Under the pieces are notes generated by a model. That model worked only from the letters and a program-made list of their open reading frames with translations. It had not been told where the DNA came from and made no database searches. A stretch of DNA of 64,000 bases, from the NCBI GenBank assembly GCA_017517705.1, contig JAFWYM010000002.1, forward strand, positions 1-64,000. The letters are read 5' to 3'. The stretch is from Alistipes sp. (GTDB taxonomy: Bacteria; Bacteroidota; Bacteroidia; Bacteroidales; Rikenellaceae). This document shows positions 26,000 to 30,712 of this stretch, in pieces. How positions within the stretch are numbered: the stretch's first letter is position 1; every line of letters starts with the position of its first letter. The translations under genes and the position numbers were made by a program.

Positions 26000-27799
26000 A
26001 TGATTGACCTTAAACCTATTGTTTCGAGAGCAGACTATATTGTAAGGATAGTCTCTATACTGACATCTATATGTGTTGTTGCGGCCATAATAGTTGATTA
26101 TGGTTTCGAGCTTGATGCCCATGAGATGTCTTTCATCTTGTCGGTATATAACACTAGTTGGTGGGTATATTTCATATCATTTGCCTATAAGATTATAGTT
26201 CATTGGGGTGAGGTTTGGCGTAAGGGGGTGTCATTTACCTTTATTTTAGGTATTATGCTTTGTGCTTCAGCATTACCGAAGCTTTTCACTACGCCCGGGG
26301 ATAGTCCATTTCTCACCATATTATGGGCTGTGCTGACTCATAAATACTTTATTATAAGCATCATAGGCCTATTGTCGCTGATTACAATATCGCAATGGAT
26401 AGTAAACTTTGTAAACAAAAGGACAAATCCTGCGCTTTTAATTGTAGTATGTTTTATGACGGTAATAGCCTTTGGTGCTCTGCTACTCTTGCTACCACGC
26501 TCCACATTGGAGCATATCCGACTACCTGTGGTAGATGCCCTCTTCATATCAACAAGCGCGGTTTGTGTTACGGGATTAAGCCCCGTAGAAATTGCACATA
26601 CGTTTACCCCCGAGGGGCAAATAATCATAGCCCTGTTGATTCAGATCGGAGGTTTGGGTATTATGACAATAACGAGTTTCTTTGCCCTGTTTTTCATGGG
26701 CGGCATCGGATTGTATTCTCAATTTTCACTGAAGAATATGATAGCGTCAAGTTCCGCATCACTGAAATCTGTGTTGACAAGTGTTTTAGGGTTTACTTTC
26801 GTGATAGAGATAATAGGAGCTCTTTTCATATGGCTTAGTATTCATTCAACAATGGGTATGACCCTCCGAGATGAGATATTCTTCTCTCTCTTTCACTCCG
26901 TATCAGCATTCTGCAATGCAGGATTCTCCACGCTGGAAGGAAATCTCGGGAATGATTTGATATTATACAATCATAACATTTTCTATCTGGTAATCTCGCT
27001 TCTTATAGTTTTGGGCGGTATCGGATTTCCTATACTCATGAGTATAAAAAGGGTTCTTTCATATTATGGTTCGGAACTCTTGCATAAGGTGTTCAGAAAG
27101 AACGGGCAGCGGTCACGATATATGCACATTGCCGATATCAACACTAAGATTGTACTATATTCCTCTCTGGCGCTGATATTTATCGGAACTGTCGGCATTG
27201 CCTTCTTTGAGTGGAATGGAGCGTTAGCCTCATTCTCATCTGATGAAAAGATTGTACAGTCTCTATTCAATGCTGTGTCACCACGAACAGCAGGATTTAA
27301 CAGCGTTGCACTAAGTGATTTCTCGAGAGTGACTATCATACTATATTTGGTGCTGATGTGGATAGGTGGTGGCTCTCAATCAACGGCAGGTGGTATCAAA
27401 GTAAACACATTTGTGGTGGCTCTCGCTTCGTTGAAGTCGCTGATTAAAGACGAACACTCCACAACACTGTTTAACCGCGAGATCACATATAGCTCGATAC
27501 GAAGAGCATTAGTCGTCGTATTTGGCTCAATATGTATCATTGCACTCTTCTATGTCGCACTACTACTGTTAGAGCCGAGCATACCATCAATCGACCTGCT
27601 GTTTGAAAGTGTGTCGGCATTCTCCACCGTAGGCTCCAGCCTGGGCATTACACCACTTTTGGGCGATAGCAGTAAGGTTCTGTTAGTGGTGCTTATGTTC
27701 TTGGGGCGCGTAGGCTTCATTACAGTACTTATGAGCATACTGCCACAAAAAGAACAGCCCAAATACCGTTTACCAAAAGAAGATATAATAATAAACTAA
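26000..27799 (+). CDS. TrkH/KtrB-type potassium transporter
   Basis: Integral membrane K+ translocating subunit with four membrane-pore-membrane units. 599 residues, longer than KtrB because of an N-terminal extension with about four extra membrane segments (about residues 10-135), typical of Bacteroidetes. All four selectivity-filter glycines are visible: AVCVTGLSPV, AFCNAGFSTL, SPRTAGFNSV and AFSTVGSSLG. The intramembrane gating loop GGSQSTAGGIKVNTF is present in the third unit. It needs a cytoplasmic RCK subunit, which is the next gene, 14 bases downstream. Confidence 0.94.
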   Translation: MIDLKPIVSRADYIVRIVSILTSICVVAAIIVDYGFELDAHEMSFILSVYNTSWWVYFISFAYKIIVHWGEVWRKGVSFTFILGIMLCASALPKLFTTPGDSPFLTILWAVLTHKYFIISIIGLLSLITISQWIVNFVNKRTNPALLIVVCFMTVIAFGALLLLLPRSTLEHIRLPVVDALFISTSAVCVTGLSPVEIAHTFTPEGQIIIALLIQIGGLGIMTITSFFALFFMGGIGLYSQFSLKNMIASSSASLKSVLTSVLGFTFVIEIIGALFIWLSIHSTMGMTLRDEIFFSLFHSVSAFCNAGFSTLEGNLGNDLILYNHNIFYLVISLLIVLGGIGFPILMSIKRVLSYYGSELLHKVFRKNGQRSRYMHIADINTKIVLYSSLALIFIGTVGIAFFEWNGALASFSSDEKIVQSLFNAVSPRTAGFNSVALSDFSRVTIILYLVLMWIGGGSQSTAGGIKVNTFVVALASLKSLIKDEHSTTLFNREITYSSIRRALVVVFGSICIIALFYVALLLLEPSIPSIDLLFESVSAFSTVGSSLGITPLLGDSSKVLLVVLMFLGRVGFITVLMSILPQKEQPKYRLPKEDIIIN

Positions 27800-27813
27800 T
27801 AAAACGAATTCGT

Positions 27814-28233
27814 ATGAAATACCTTGTGATAGGATTAGGAAATTTTGGGAGTACTCTTGCTGCCACTCTTACCGATATGGGGCACTCTGTCATTGGCGTT
27901 GATTGCAATGAGCACTGCATCGAAGAGATTAAAGATAGAATAGACTTAGCCTATATTATGGATGCAACCGAAAGAGCATCATTACGGAGCCTGCCTTTAG
28001 ATGAAATCGATTGTGTAATTGTTGCCATCGGACAGAGTATGGATAGCTCATTAAGAACCGTGGCTTCACTGAAGGAACTAAATGTGAAGAATATCATAGC
28101 ACGCGCACTCGACACCACACACTCCTCAATTCTTAGGGCTATGGATATTAAGAAAATTCTGATCCCCGAGAGTTATGCTGCTCGAATTTTTGCCGAGAAG
28201 ATACTCTCAAACGATTCAGAAGAGCTATTATAA
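27814..28233 (+). CDS. RCK_N-only K+ channel regulator (KtrA/TrkA-like, lacking RCK_C)
   Basis: A 139-residue cytoplasmic protein with the Rossmann fold of RCK_N: YLVIGLGNFGSTLAATL supplies the GxGxxG nucleotide-binding loop, VIGVDCNEHCIEEI ends the second strand with an acidic residue, and YIMDATERASLRSL follows. KtrA/TrkA proteins normally have about 220 residues, with a C-terminal RCK_C domain that binds c-di-AMP in several species. Here the frame stops at residue 139, and the downstream bases show no continuing frame. It should still bind ATP/ADP or NAD and gate the neighbouring channel, but not in the c-di-AMP-responsive way (inference). Confidence 0.85.
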   Translation: MKYLVIGLGNFGSTLAATLTDMGHSVIGVDCNEHCIEEIKDRIDLAYIMDATERASLRSLPLDEIDCVIVAIGQSMDSSLRTVASLKELNVKNIIARALDTTHSSILRAMDIKKILIPESYAARIFAEKILSNDSEELL

Positions 28234-28420
28234 AATTGCTGAGAAAATAGAAAGGAGAGCAAAATCACACCACCAATCTTAGCCTTAAAAACTCATAAAA
28301 CAATATACCTACACTACCACAAAGCGAAAGACGGAAAACATACATCCCCATACAACACACTAATTATCAACGTATTGCACCATTACACTCGATGATATGT
28401 AAAAAATATTTATAAAAATA

Positions 28421-28452
28421 TTTGGCAGAATGGAATTAATGTCATACCTTTG
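28421..28452 (+). promoter_or_regulatory. Promoter (TTTG - 20 - TACCTTTG) of tRNA-Ser
   Basis: TTTG at 28421-28424 and TACCTTTG at 28445-28452, with exactly 20 bases between. This is a textbook Bacteroidetes promoter, and transcription would begin at or next to the first base of the tRNA. Confidence 0.85.
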
Positions 28453-28458
28453 TCCGTT

Positions 28459-28543
28459 GGAGAGGTGGCAGAGTGGTCGATTGCGGCGGTCTTGAAAACC
28501 GTTGAGCTGCGAGGCTCCGGGGGTTCGAATCCCTCCCTCTCCG
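28459..28543 (+). tRNA. tRNA-Ser (anticodon TGA)
   Basis: An 85-base class II tRNA. The 7-bp acceptor stem GGAGAGG/CCTCTCC, the anticodon loop CTTGAAA flanked by CGGT/ACCG, the long variable arm (GAGCTGCGAGGCTC) and the T-arm GGGGGTTCGAATCCCTC fold in full, with discriminator G. CCA is not encoded. It reads UCN-type serine codons. Its 3' end (AATCCCTCCCTCTCCGC) recurs several times in the next 700 bases. Confidence 0.95.
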
Positions 28544-28553
28544 CATCAAGCGT

Positions 28554-28679
28554 AAAAATAGCACGACTCGCATTTTGCGAGTCTTTTTTTTGTCAAACGG
28601 TCATCGGTAAATAAATTTACCAGTGGCCGTTTGTCAAATAAAAGTAAGTCTCGGCTCTGCCGATACTCGTGCTATTTTT
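28554..28679. repeat. Palindromic core 1 of the tRNA-Ser array
   Basis: Outer arms AAAAATAGCACGA (28554-28566) and TCGTGCTATTTTT (28667-28679) are a perfect 13-bp inverted repeat. Inside is a second hairpin: CAAACGG (28594-28600) with CCGTTTG (28627-28633), continuing inward to GGTAAAT-AA-ATTTACC (28606-28621) with only two loop bases. Confidence 0.8.
28565..28590 (+). terminator. Rho-independent terminator after tRNA-Ser
   Basis: GACTCGC-ATTTT-GCGAGTC followed by eight T, about 22 bases after the tRNA. Confidence 0.9.
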
Positions 28680-28772
28680 CTGCTTGCAAGTTAAGGAGTA
28701 AAGGGAAAGACGAGCGAAGCGATGTCAATCCCTCCCTCGGTTTTCAAGTACCGCCTGTTGCCGCGATTGATA

Positions 28773-28833
28773 CTTTTTTACACCACAGGTCTGGCTGTAA
28801 AAAAGCATCTACCTACGGCAAAATGAATTTGCC
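28773..28833. repeat. Palindromic core 2 of the tRNA-Ser array
   Basis: CTTTTTTACA (28773-28782) pairs with TGTAAAAAAG (28796-28805) around a 13-base loop. A further hairpin GGCAAA / TTTGCC lies at 28817-28833. Confidence 0.65.
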
Positions 28834-29020
28834 TTCGGTTGCGGCGGTCAAAGGTATAGGACTCTCTCGAATTCATTCGGAAGAGGTCCTCTGCTGCATA
28901 AAATGGGTGGTTATGTACCACCTGCGTCTATCTCTATTTTTTCCGCTTGCAAGTTAAGGAGTAAAGGGAACGGCGACCGCAGGAAGTCAATCCCTCTCCG
29001 CAAACGCAACGAAGCAAGAA

Positions 29021-29052
29021 GGTGTCGATTACTCGACACCTTTTGTTTTTTA
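29021..29052 (+). terminator. Terminator-like hairpin after the second tRNA-tail copy
   Basis: GGTGTCGA-TTAC-TCGACACC followed by TTTTGTTTTTT, about 20 bases after the tail ending at 29001. This is the same spacing as the real terminator after tRNA-Ser. Confidence 0.75.
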
Positions 29053-29098
29053 TGCCTCGGCATAAGCTTGCTTATAGACGTAGGCATGGAAAACAAAA
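29041..29098. repeat. Palindromic core 3 of the tRNA-Ser array
   Basis: Arms TTTTGTTTTTTATGCCT (29041-29057) and its near reverse complement (29082-29098), 15 of 17 matching. The centre ATAAGC-TT-GCTTAT (29062-29075) again has a two-base loop. Confidence 0.75.
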
Positions 29099-29230
29099 AT
29101 GGTTGATTTATCAACTTCTTGCGAAGTGTAGTTTGCAAGGGCCCCCGCGGCAAGCGGAGGGGAAAGGCGTTAAGCGGAGCAGACCGCAGGGATGCGTAGT
29201 AGCCAATCCCTCCCTCTCCGCTGGATTGAA

Positions 29231-29338
29231 TGCAGGGCAGACGACGGAAGTCGTCTGTTTTGTTTTTGTGGTGTGTCGTCGTTTGCAAGCCACCGCCACA
29301 CACCGCAAAAACAAACCGCCACGGGCGATTGCCCTGCA
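29231..29338. repeat. Palindromic core 4 of the tRNA-Ser array
   Basis: Outer arms TGCAGGGCA (29231-29239) / TGCCCTGCA (29330-29338) and inner arms TTGTTTTTGTGGTGTG (29260-29275) with its near complement (29299-29314, 15 of 16). Within the left arm lies a terminator-like hairpin CAGACGAC-GGAA-GTCGTCTG followed by TTTTGTTTTT (29238-29267). Confidence 0.75.
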
Positions 29339-29484
29339 TCCTGCTGTTGGTGAGGCATTGCTCACTAATAAGGGGTTGAGCCGATAGACAGGTTGTTTAT
29401 TGCTCGGGACTACGCCCTGCGCCTTTGGGGTATCGTCTCTTCGACTACGTCGCCCTCCCCCACAATTCAAATTTTAGCTCTGAT

Positions 29485-29513
29485 GAGAAGTTTATTCTTC
29501 TCGCGCTTTTTTT
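29485..29513 (+). terminator. Hairpin with T-run at the right edge of the array
   Basis: GAGAAG-TTTATT-CTTCTC followed after GCGC by seven T. It may mark the end of the array. From here to the agmatinase gene I see only its promoter and AT-rich sequence. Confidence 0.5.
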
Positions 29514-29694
29514 GGGCAATCTCTCCCAGGTTGCTTTGCAAATACAAATACCATAAACAGAAAAATAGATCTGGTAATTTCTATAGCGATGACATCGATA
29601 TAAAATTATTACCTACATAACCCAACAACCGCCCCGGAGAGGCGTGTAGTGGCATAAAGAAAATAAGAAGATATGCAAAAAAATGATGAAAATG

Positions 29695-29725
29695 GTTGTA
29701 TATAAAACTAAAATACTTATATTTG
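29695..29725 (+). promoter_or_regulatory. Promoter (GTTG - 19 - TATATTTG) of the polyamine operon
   Basis: GTTG at 29695-29698 and TATATTTG at 29718-29725. The leader to the agmatinase ATG would be about 125 bases. Confidence 0.6.
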
Positions 29726-29857
29726 CGACGTCGAAATAGTGGTAATCGACAGATAAAAAACCACATTTATACTATGTCGAGGCAGACTATACGTGGCATA
29801 GATTTTTGTGGAGGGTATATGAGAATTGAGAAAAGACGATATTAGCGGTATTTAGAG

Positions 29858-30712
29858 ATGAGAGCATTTGGTGACTTCACCCCCGAAGAGATCTGTTACG
29901 AGAGGGCTGCAATAGCCATACTCCCCGTGCCATACGATGGTACAAGCACCTGGATAAAGGGTGCCGACCGTGGCCCCGAGGCGTTGCTCGAGGCGTCATA
30001 CAACCTCGAGTTTTACGACATTGAGACTCGGAGCGAGGTCTTTCGCCGTGGCATTGCCACGTTAGGGCCCGTAACCGAGAGCAGCTCGCCCGAGGCCATG
30101 GCCTATGCGGTGGAGGCAAGGATGCGACAGATTATCGAGGATGGTAAGTTTCCCGTGCTTATAGGTGGGGAGCACTCGGTGTCGATAGGGGCTTTTCGTG
30201 CCATGGCGCAACGCTACCCCGGGCTATCGATTCTTCAGCTCGACGCCCACAGCGACATGCGCGATGAGTACGAGGGCTCGGCCTGCAACCACGCCTGCGT
30301 AATGGCGCGTGCCAAGGAGCTGACATCGAGCATCACACAGGTGGGAATACGCTCGTCGGCACGCGAGGAGCAGCACAACATCGACCCCGAGCGAATCTTC
30401 TATGCTCATAGCATTGCCGAGGATAGCAAGTGGCAGGAGCGTGTATCGGAACAATTGGGCAACGAGGTATACATAACGATAGACCTCGACGTCTTTGATC
30501 CCGCATACCTCCCCTCAACGGGGACGCCCGAGCCCGGAGGCCTAAACTACCGCGAGGTGATGGGGCTCCTGCGACGTGTGATTCGCGAGCATCGCGTTGT
30601 CGGCATTGACGTTGTCGAGCTGTGTCCCAACCCCACGGCTAAGGCTTCTGACTTCCTCGCTGCAAAGCTCGTATACCAACTACTTAGCGAGGTCTTTGCC
30701 CATCGAGAATAA
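29858..30712 (+). CDS. speB: Agmatinase (arginase/ureohydrolase family)
   Basis: Hydrolyses agmatine to putrescine and urea with a binuclear Mn centre. 284 residues. Metal ligands lie in GGEHSVSIG, LDAHSDMRDEY and TIDLDVFDPAY, and the substrate-loop region STGTPEPGGLNYREV is present. The sequence could also be another ureohydrolase, but the context of arginine decarboxylase and carboxynorspermidine genes in the same operon favours agmatinase. Many Bacteroidetes use agmatine deiminase and N-carbamoylputrescine amidase instead; neither is in this window. Confidence 0.9.
   Translation: MRAFGDFTPEEICYERAAIAILPVPYDGTSTWIKGADRGPEALLEASYNLEFYDIETRSEVFRRGIATLGPVTESSSPEAMAYAVEARMRQIIEDGKFPVLIGGEHSVSIGAFRAMAQRYPGLSILQLDAHSDMRDEYEGSACNHACVMARAKELTSSITQVGIRSSAREEQHNIDPERIFYAHSIAEDSKWQERVSEQLGNEVYITIDLDVFDPAYLPSTGTPEPGGLNYREVMGLLRRVIREHRVVGIDVVELCPNPTAKASDFLAAKLVYQLLSEVFAHRE

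Follow-up and report, generated by a model that had tools for sequence, protein, structure and literature searches.

What is the gene-free DNA behind the tRNA-Ser(TGA) gene of this Alistipes sp. genome, and how did copies of the tRNA 3' end come to be repeated in it? The initial annotation of the window (the whole 64,000-nucleotide stretch that was analysed) suggested repeated insertion or excision at a tRNA attachment site, or a dispersed repeat family with variable hairpins. The results described below support both the tRNA 3' end as the anchoring site and a dispersed repeat family with variable hairpins. The best explanation, to which we give a probability of roughly 0.56, is that the locus is a tRNA-anchored array of noncoding, RtT-like cassettes that is shuffled by recombination at the tails.

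The array of the window consists of tRNA-Ser(TGA) followed by four units in the order C, F/C', B, and A (the type letters A to F are labels of this analysis), and all of the features given here lie on the plus strand. The anchoring tRNA gene (28459..28544) was identified with ARAGORN and Infernal, and the repeated tail is the 3' end of this tRNA beginning at A58 of the T-loop. Unit 1 (type C, 28545..28726) has a multibranched 5' domain with a terminator hairpin, followed by a pseudo-T-arm. The intrinsic-terminator-like hairpin at 28565-28583 and its T run occupy 28565..28590, and the pseudo-T-arm (AGGGA ... AATCCCT, 28702..28731), which was determined from the sequence and the predicted fold, has a 5' arm that pairs with the tail. 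The first tail copy, AATCCCTCCCTC (28727..28738), is shortened. It is followed by a decayed type-F module (28739..28849) that contains an inverted copy of the anticodon arm at 28739-28755 and a direct copy, TCGGTTGCGGCGGTC, at 28835-28849. This remnant alone is not significant (local score of 28 versus a maximum of 31 in 300 shuffles), and sequence related to the module is found at loci L226-L229. At L229 the type-F unit ends in a 67-nt near-copy of tRNA-Ser that begins before the anticodon arm, which shows the use of a second tRNA sub-site.

A truncated type-C unit (C', 28850..28988) comes next, as determined from repeat D1 (89% identity over 45 nt) and from comparison with L227 and L229. A letter-by-letter check found the 26-mer at 28682-28707 to be identical to the second copy within C' at 28945-28970; the initial annotation was thus correct that a 26-base module is present twice, and this module turns out to be merely the 3' part of one unit type (C). 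The second tail copy reads CAATCCCTCTCCGC at 28988-29001 or, counted as a part of the array, AATCCCTCTCCGC at 28989..29001, and has a 4-nt deletion. Unit 3 (type B, 29002..29204) has a terminator hairpin at 29017-29044, a 3' domain that is matched by the covariance model R1 at 29137-29215 with 90.3 bits, and a pseudo-T-arm (GGGGA ... AATCCC, 29159..29210) taken from alignment A1 and the consensus fold. The third tail copy, CAATCCCTCCCTCTCCGC at 29204-29221 (AATCCCTCCCTCTCCGC at 29205..29221 as an array part), is the same as the tRNA end. Unit 4 (type A, 29222..29451), which is absent from the initial annotation, was delimited with repeats I2 and I4. It has a terminator hairpin at 29232-29263 and a long-range stem formed by GAGCCGATA (29378-29386) and TATCGTCTC (29431-29439), for which stem variants are found in other A units, and the array closes with a degenerate last tail, CCCTCCCCCAC (29452..29463), that was read from the sequence.

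The same letter-by-letter check placed the tRNA and the three tails where they had first been reported, and the hairpins that had been noted after the tRNA and after two of the tails are the three same-strand terminator-like hairpins listed above for units 1, 3, and 4. On both strands of 28300-29600 there are 10 terminator-like sites compared with a shuffle mean of 1.8. The array is without a gene, as had been proposed: none of its four ORFs of at least 100 amino acids has a Pfam match, and an integrase-bearing element between the tRNA and a tail was not found. An Rfam search of 27500-30500 returned the tRNA alone above its gathering score, and sX4, a plastid UTR, a miRNA, and others below theirs.

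Arrays of this kind are not confined to one tRNA. The loci that were read contain 64 arrays with 82 tail-delimited units behind 18 isoacceptors (up to three mismatches were allowed in the tail, and E. coli and outgroup loci were left out), and the median unit is 204 nt long without its tail. In each case the tail copies the resident tRNA, and the earlier expectation that copies would always sit next to tRNA-Ser is not supported, while the expected variation of copy number is found between species and extends to the type of unit. The 5' domain starts at the tRNA 3' end and carries the terminator hairpin inside a longer stem. The 3' domains differ by type: GGGGTTGAGCCGATA...TATCGGCTC...TTCGAATCC (type A), GGGGAAAGGCGTTAAGC...GTAGTAGCCAATCC (type B), GTAAAGGGAAAGRC...GYCAATCC (type C), GGGGTTACCTC...ATTCAAATCC (type D), an inverted tRNA copy with a largely intact T-arm (type E), and the anticodon arm (type F). 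In types A and B the domain replaces the T-loop of a second T-arm.

The local origin of the tails was examined by asking whether the last 16 nt of a tRNA recur with at most one mismatch on the same strand within 1 kb downstream. The source genome contains 38 tRNAs, and 9 of the 35 with at least 200 nt downstream score by this rule (Ser twice, His, Lys, Thr twice, Gly, Pro, and Leu) compared with 0 of 1154 controls using the tails of other tRNAs and 0 antisense matches, which sets aside the concern of the initial annotation that the tails match by chance. A blastn search of the source genome with 28545-29480 found matches 3' of tRNA-Ser(CGA), His, Lys, Thr(CGT), and Pro, and the tRNA scan added arrays at Thr(GGT), Gly(CCC), and Leu(TAA). 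The same family behind other tRNAs had not been part of the initial annotation. In a second species (G064) 7 of 30 tRNAs score (Val, Gly-GCC, Thr-CGT, Asp, Ala, Cys, and His; other-tail control 1 of 842). An array on contig C12 of this genome and a tRNA-Ser(TGA) on contig C8 both lie at contig edges, so the C12 array may continue that of C8. Two more genus members, with 45 and 47 tRNAs and 15 loci of each covered by the tail scan, gave 1 of 17 (control 1 of 254) and 0 of 17. Seven genomes of other families, sampled at 30 loci, gave 5 scoring tRNAs out of 54 (control 12 of 2714), and these matches are mostly repeated tRNA copies at a single locus, L275. This locus, in a genome of another Bacteroidales family (G038), holds repeated copies of the 3' part of tRNA-Val with altered anticodon arms. 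One other-family match is an E-type array at tRNA-Gly(GCC) (L292 in G044), and an E-type unit with an inverted tRNA copy lies behind tRNA-Gly(GCC) both there, outside the genus, and at L261 in G087. The E-type layout may, given L292, be older than the genus.

The pseudo-T-arm follows the local tRNA as well, in that its 5' strand covaries with the tail and tends to match the T-stem. Arms at Pro tRNAs are CAAGA/TCTTG, CTGGA/TCCAG, and CAGGA/TCCTG, and those at Ser, His, Glu, and Val are mostly RGGGA/TCCCN. For 77 type-B units with a tRNA, arm and tail pair at 352 of 385 positions (4.57 of 5 per unit) compared with 4.26 for shuffled arms (maximum 4.44), and none of 10000 shuffles, which ignore phylogeny, was as high. 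The 22 type-A units with a readable junction pair at 92 of 110 positions versus 84.5 when shuffled, again ignoring phylogeny, with 25 of 10000 shuffles as high; A-type arms fail to match at Cys (2 of 5) and, with 3 of 5 each, at Pro and two His units. A wider type-B test of 109 rows, which takes in chance pattern matches without a tRNA and is superseded by the test on the 77 units, gave 4.44 versus 4.07, with a maximum of 4.24 in 1000 shuffles.

The units are strongly structured, with fold z-scores of -9.8 for type C (over 28545-28744), -5.9 for type B, and -4.9 for type A. In the type-B consensus 6 of 15 pairs have two-sided, compensatory changes. For the type-A stem, 26 units share a common form, and eight further forms are also fully complementary (CGCGGATA, CGAGGATA, CGGGAATA, CGCGCTCA, AGCGAACA, AGCCAACA, CGGGGATA, and CCGAAATA), as counted from 55 matches to a loose pattern from which 16 that looked unrelated by eye and 3 variants with one mismatch had been removed. 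Among 31 full B units there are 54 G-U cells and 9 A-C cells, and this excess indicates that the structure acts on the tRNA-sense strand, either as RNA or as a single strand of that DNA.

By blastn a match was found in 26 of 36 other members of the genus and in 0 of 24 from other families. R1, a covariance model of the type-B 3' domain built from 71 sequences (71 of 77 listed B domains entered alignment A1), matched 62 of 101 genomes of the genus. Of 247 genomes sampled from the whole order, the source genome alone had a match, which leaves 0 of the 246 others; both searches used stricter filters, which lose weak matches. When 84,980 species genomes were scanned with an exact type-B pattern, 71 stretches matched. 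Their labels are Alistipes sp. or Rikenellaceae bacterium, and their titles name the gut of cattle, buffalo, goat, sheep, yak, or deer in 61 cases and no host in 10. We group the source genome with these herbivore-gut bacteria on the basis of how closely its elements are related to theirs. The pattern fixes RGGGA, so the pattern and R1 favour tRNAs with TCCC T-stems. A same-strand tRNA lies within 1.5 kb upstream for 59 of 78 pattern matches, and for 18 of the 19 remaining matches the stretch examined reaches less than 1.5 kb upstream. Twenty R1 matches that were picked by hand, low scorers included, comprise 16 with a tRNA, 2 cut by contig ends, and 2 without one (L209 and L212).

Several loci depart from this placement. 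At L212 a run of N lies upstream of the tRNA-less type-B domain, and at L123 and L209 the type-B 3' domain is clearly without a nearby tRNA; from these last two, the domain also exists as a dispersed, REP-like hairpin. At L210 the domain is in tandem without tRNA tails, with a period of about 165 bp, at a contig end. At L057 B-type units lie on the strand opposite a tRNA-Arg and face it, and they probably close an array whose tRNA-Ser lies past the end of the contig. The minus strand of L010 has a repeat-like GTCATCCTGAGCGGAGCGTTAGCGGAGTCGAAGGATC at about positions 50-90, which we take to be dispersed, with GAGCGGAGC/GCGGAGT motifs in common with the type-B hairpin. The type-B 3' domain at L123, L209, and L210 resembles REP-like dispersed palindromes in this respect, whereas in the arrays the domain forms part of a larger unit, with arms that tend to match the resident tRNA.

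Comparisons between loci indicate what is gained and lost. The named records are MAGs and the rest are other assemblies; short-read assembly can misjoin identical units of about 200 bp, and junctions at tails of 16-26 nt are less prone to this. Unit C of the window with both of its tails matches the unit in second position behind tRNA-Ser(TGA) of another species (G080) at 98.6% identity over 216 bp, and a comparison of 27100-30700 with G080 at 1e-80 gave no match beyond unit C. One His unit is 97-99% identical in three records from different isolates of three species. In L102 it adjoins the tRNA, whereas in L124 an A unit and in L135 a C' unit comes before it. The flank that comes next is common to L102 and L124 (95.8% over 265 bp), and no similarity was detected between these two loci in about 690 nt upstream of the tRNA. 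Within the source genome, the order of A and B is reversed between the Ser(CGA) and Ser(TGA) arrays: unit 3 (B) of the window is 98% identical to a unit behind Ser(CGA), and unit 4 (A) is 98% identical to unit 1 there. G080 has the order A-B-flank at L128, behind Ser(CGA), and A-C-flank at L225, behind Ser(TGA), where the A units are 96.5% identical, the 671-bp flanks are 93% identical, and the B/C swap lies between tails. This is a unit difference between paralogous arrays of one genome with a duplicated flank and not a transfer; the 671-bp flank is itself a duplicated segment present at two tRNA-Ser genes. Taken together, these four comparisons indicate that the tail-to-tail unit appears to be what is gained, lost, and exchanged. 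No unit was found to have spread to a tRNA carrying a different tail, as pairs that are at least 88% identical share the same or nearly the same tail. An empty-site comparison for the window was sought in 8 relatives that have the agmatinase gene, and no tRNA was found in about 3 kb upstream of that gene.

The closest known system is found in E. coli. Like the arrays, the 178-bp repeats of tyrT/tyrV, which encode RtT RNA (RF00391), are units behind a tRNA with tails that start at A58 (AATCC...). The tyrV repeat tails lie at +158, +336, and +514, a spacing of 178 nt, and in the predicted fold an GGGGAAGGAT arm pairs with the tail ATCCTTCCCC, which is the same 3' architecture. Taken as a whole, the E. 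coli unit has a fold barely better than that of shuffled sequence (z of -0.9), unlike the array units, and the arrays differ further in having several unit types, many tRNAs, a terminator within the units, and exchange of units. In E. coli K-12 an RtT match lies between tyrT and tyrV (L236:1364-1495, minus strand), so units can lie between two tRNAs. RF00391 gave 4 matches of 133-138 bits in the E. coli control and none in 27500-30500 or in seven other array loci, relaxed thresholds included. Since the tail start and the arm-tail pairing are shared but RF00391 does not match, the arrays work like RtT repeats and are not members of the RF00391 family as modelled. A limited literature search returned, among the matches listed, no description of such arrays in Bacteroidota.

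Under the preferred reading, a cassette consists of about 200 nt plus a 16-nt tail and starts at the mature 3' end of the tRNA or of the preceding tail. An intrinsic terminator within the multibranched 5' domain is followed by the pseudo-T-arm, whose 5' strand tends to match the local T-stem and whose 3' strand is the tRNA tail from A58 to the discriminator base. The array structure most likely acts as a trailer RNA of the RtT kind, ending tRNA transcripts, and where transcription reads through, the unit RNA could be freed by tRNA 3'-end processing; we infer both the transcription and the release of this RNA. The repeated tail would act as the crossover, as the junctions suggest, and whole cassettes would be added, removed, duplicated, or swapped, for the most part between tRNA genes that have the same tail.

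The means of exchange can be read in more than one way. It is possible, at somewhat less than even odds, that homologous recombination and tandem duplication account for the arrays, with one ancestral tail-ending unit per tRNA followed by unequal crossing-over and exchange at identical tails and units. The near-perfect tandem arrays (96-98%) at Gly-CCC, Thr-GGT, Leu-TAA, His, and Pro, the position of highly similar unit pairs behind tRNAs with matching or nearly matching tails, and the duplicated flank of the G080 pair all fit this account, but it leaves unexplained the first origin of tail-matched units behind about 18 tRNAs and the unrelated unit type between the tRNA and the shared unit in L124 versus L102. 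Integron cassette arrays are likewise ordered, hairpin-ended, anchored at one end, and shuffled as units, and the array cassettes have hairpin ends and tail-bounded unit differences in the assemblies. An integron-like system, which we consider doubtful, would use the T-arms (the anticodon arm for type F) as attI/attB and the pseudo-T-arm as an attC-like site for a tyrosine recombinase acting in trans. It would account for units that are oriented like the tRNA and end in a hairpin whose 3' arm lies at the junction, for unrelated units that adjoin the tRNA ahead of a shared unit, and for the use of both the T-arm and the anticodon arm as sub-sites. The anticodon arm and the T-arm are reportedly the usual tRNA integrase sub-sites, as Williams is said to have described in 2002. 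Set against this, the arrays have no linked integrase and no genes in the units read, their anchor is a tRNA gene, and their 3' arm is tRNA sequence; the junctions share about A58 onward and not the full 7-nt T-loop, and the bias of G-U over A-C points to RNA or the top strand. A linked integron integrase gene was not found: PF00589 has four matches in the source genome and none in the window, which agrees with the initial annotation that no recombinase is nearby, and all four fall below the TIGR02249 and NF011946 cutoffs. These are XerD (above its cutoff), a XerC-like protein below the XerC cutoff, one weak match, and one without an NCBIfam match at 1e-10. XerD does score above the cutoff of NF040815, a broad model that lists integron integrase in its description as well. 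None of the four proteins could be tied to the arrays. At L235 (G000:C44) a tyrosine recombinase lies beside a gene that is presumably NusG/UpxY-like, and it is likely a capsule phase-variation invertase. The further proposal of a new integron-like principle is a little more doubtful still. In it, tRNA genes would be the anchoring attachment sites, a recombinase in trans would insert and shuffle gene-free, RNA-structured cassettes, each with an attC-like pseudo-T-arm fitted to the host tRNA, and the tyrT repeats would be a relic.

Two other origins are less probable. The units could be scars of islands or phages integrating at tRNA 3' ends, each being the leftover end of a lost island, which we find quite improbable. 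Genomic islands borne by tRNAs also have a duplicated tRNA 3' end at the far end and T-arm or anticodon-arm boundaries, and integration ordinarily leaves a partial copy of the tRNA there, according to PMC9897764. Four arrays begin at a non-tRNA flank with a tail, which is possibly an island right end. The array units are, unlike islands, about 0.2 kb, noncoding, tandem, and without an integrase, and they are alike in size, conserved in structure with compensatory changes, and spread through a genus; a carrier was not found either, as two patterns had no exact match in IMG/VR and blastn gave no match in phage or plasmid records. The four arrays (the starts of L096, L117, and L125, and L140 on the minus strand) have a tail but no tRNA, preceded by AT-rich DNA, and lie about 0.15-0.9 kb from contig ends. 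A reading as insertions at T-arm-like sites was given up; they may be right ends of islands that integrated between a tRNA and its array, or may continue an array from another contig, and nothing rests on them. Alternatively, a unit RNA with a tRNA-like 3' end could have been reverse transcribed into the tRNA locus, with the tail as a target-site duplication. A tail that starts at A58, a structured sense strand, and the local origin of the tail would suit such retro-insertion, but the PF00078 reverse transcriptase domain, present in 33 of 101 genus genomes, was not found in the source genome (96% complete), which nevertheless has 98% identical units at two loci. Retro-insertion was dropped as very unlikely on this ground. 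No array gene, phage, plasmid, or reverse transcriptase thus accounts for the arrays, and with reverse transcription unlikely, no carrier phage or plasmid, and recombinases not tied to the arrays, we hold the exchange at the tails to be a crossover, for which homologous recombination is somewhat more likely than a site-specific recombinase in trans.

The arrays are real, conserved, unannotated, and unusual, and they represent a known layout, that of the tyrT/RtT repeats, in a new variant with several unit types and many tRNAs. To our knowledge, the tyrT repeats of E. coli have been a curiosity of unclear origin for decades. The arrays spread a tyrT-like layout over many tRNAs and species and several unit types, so its rules can be read comparatively and tested: a tail that starts at A58, a pseudo-T-arm that tends to match the local tRNA, and exchange of whole units. 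If the tails are true recombination sites, tRNA genes would seed gene-free cassette arrays, which would be a new route of genome plasticity. If the unit RNA matters, the ends of tRNA transcripts would harbour a large RNA family that has gone unannotated.
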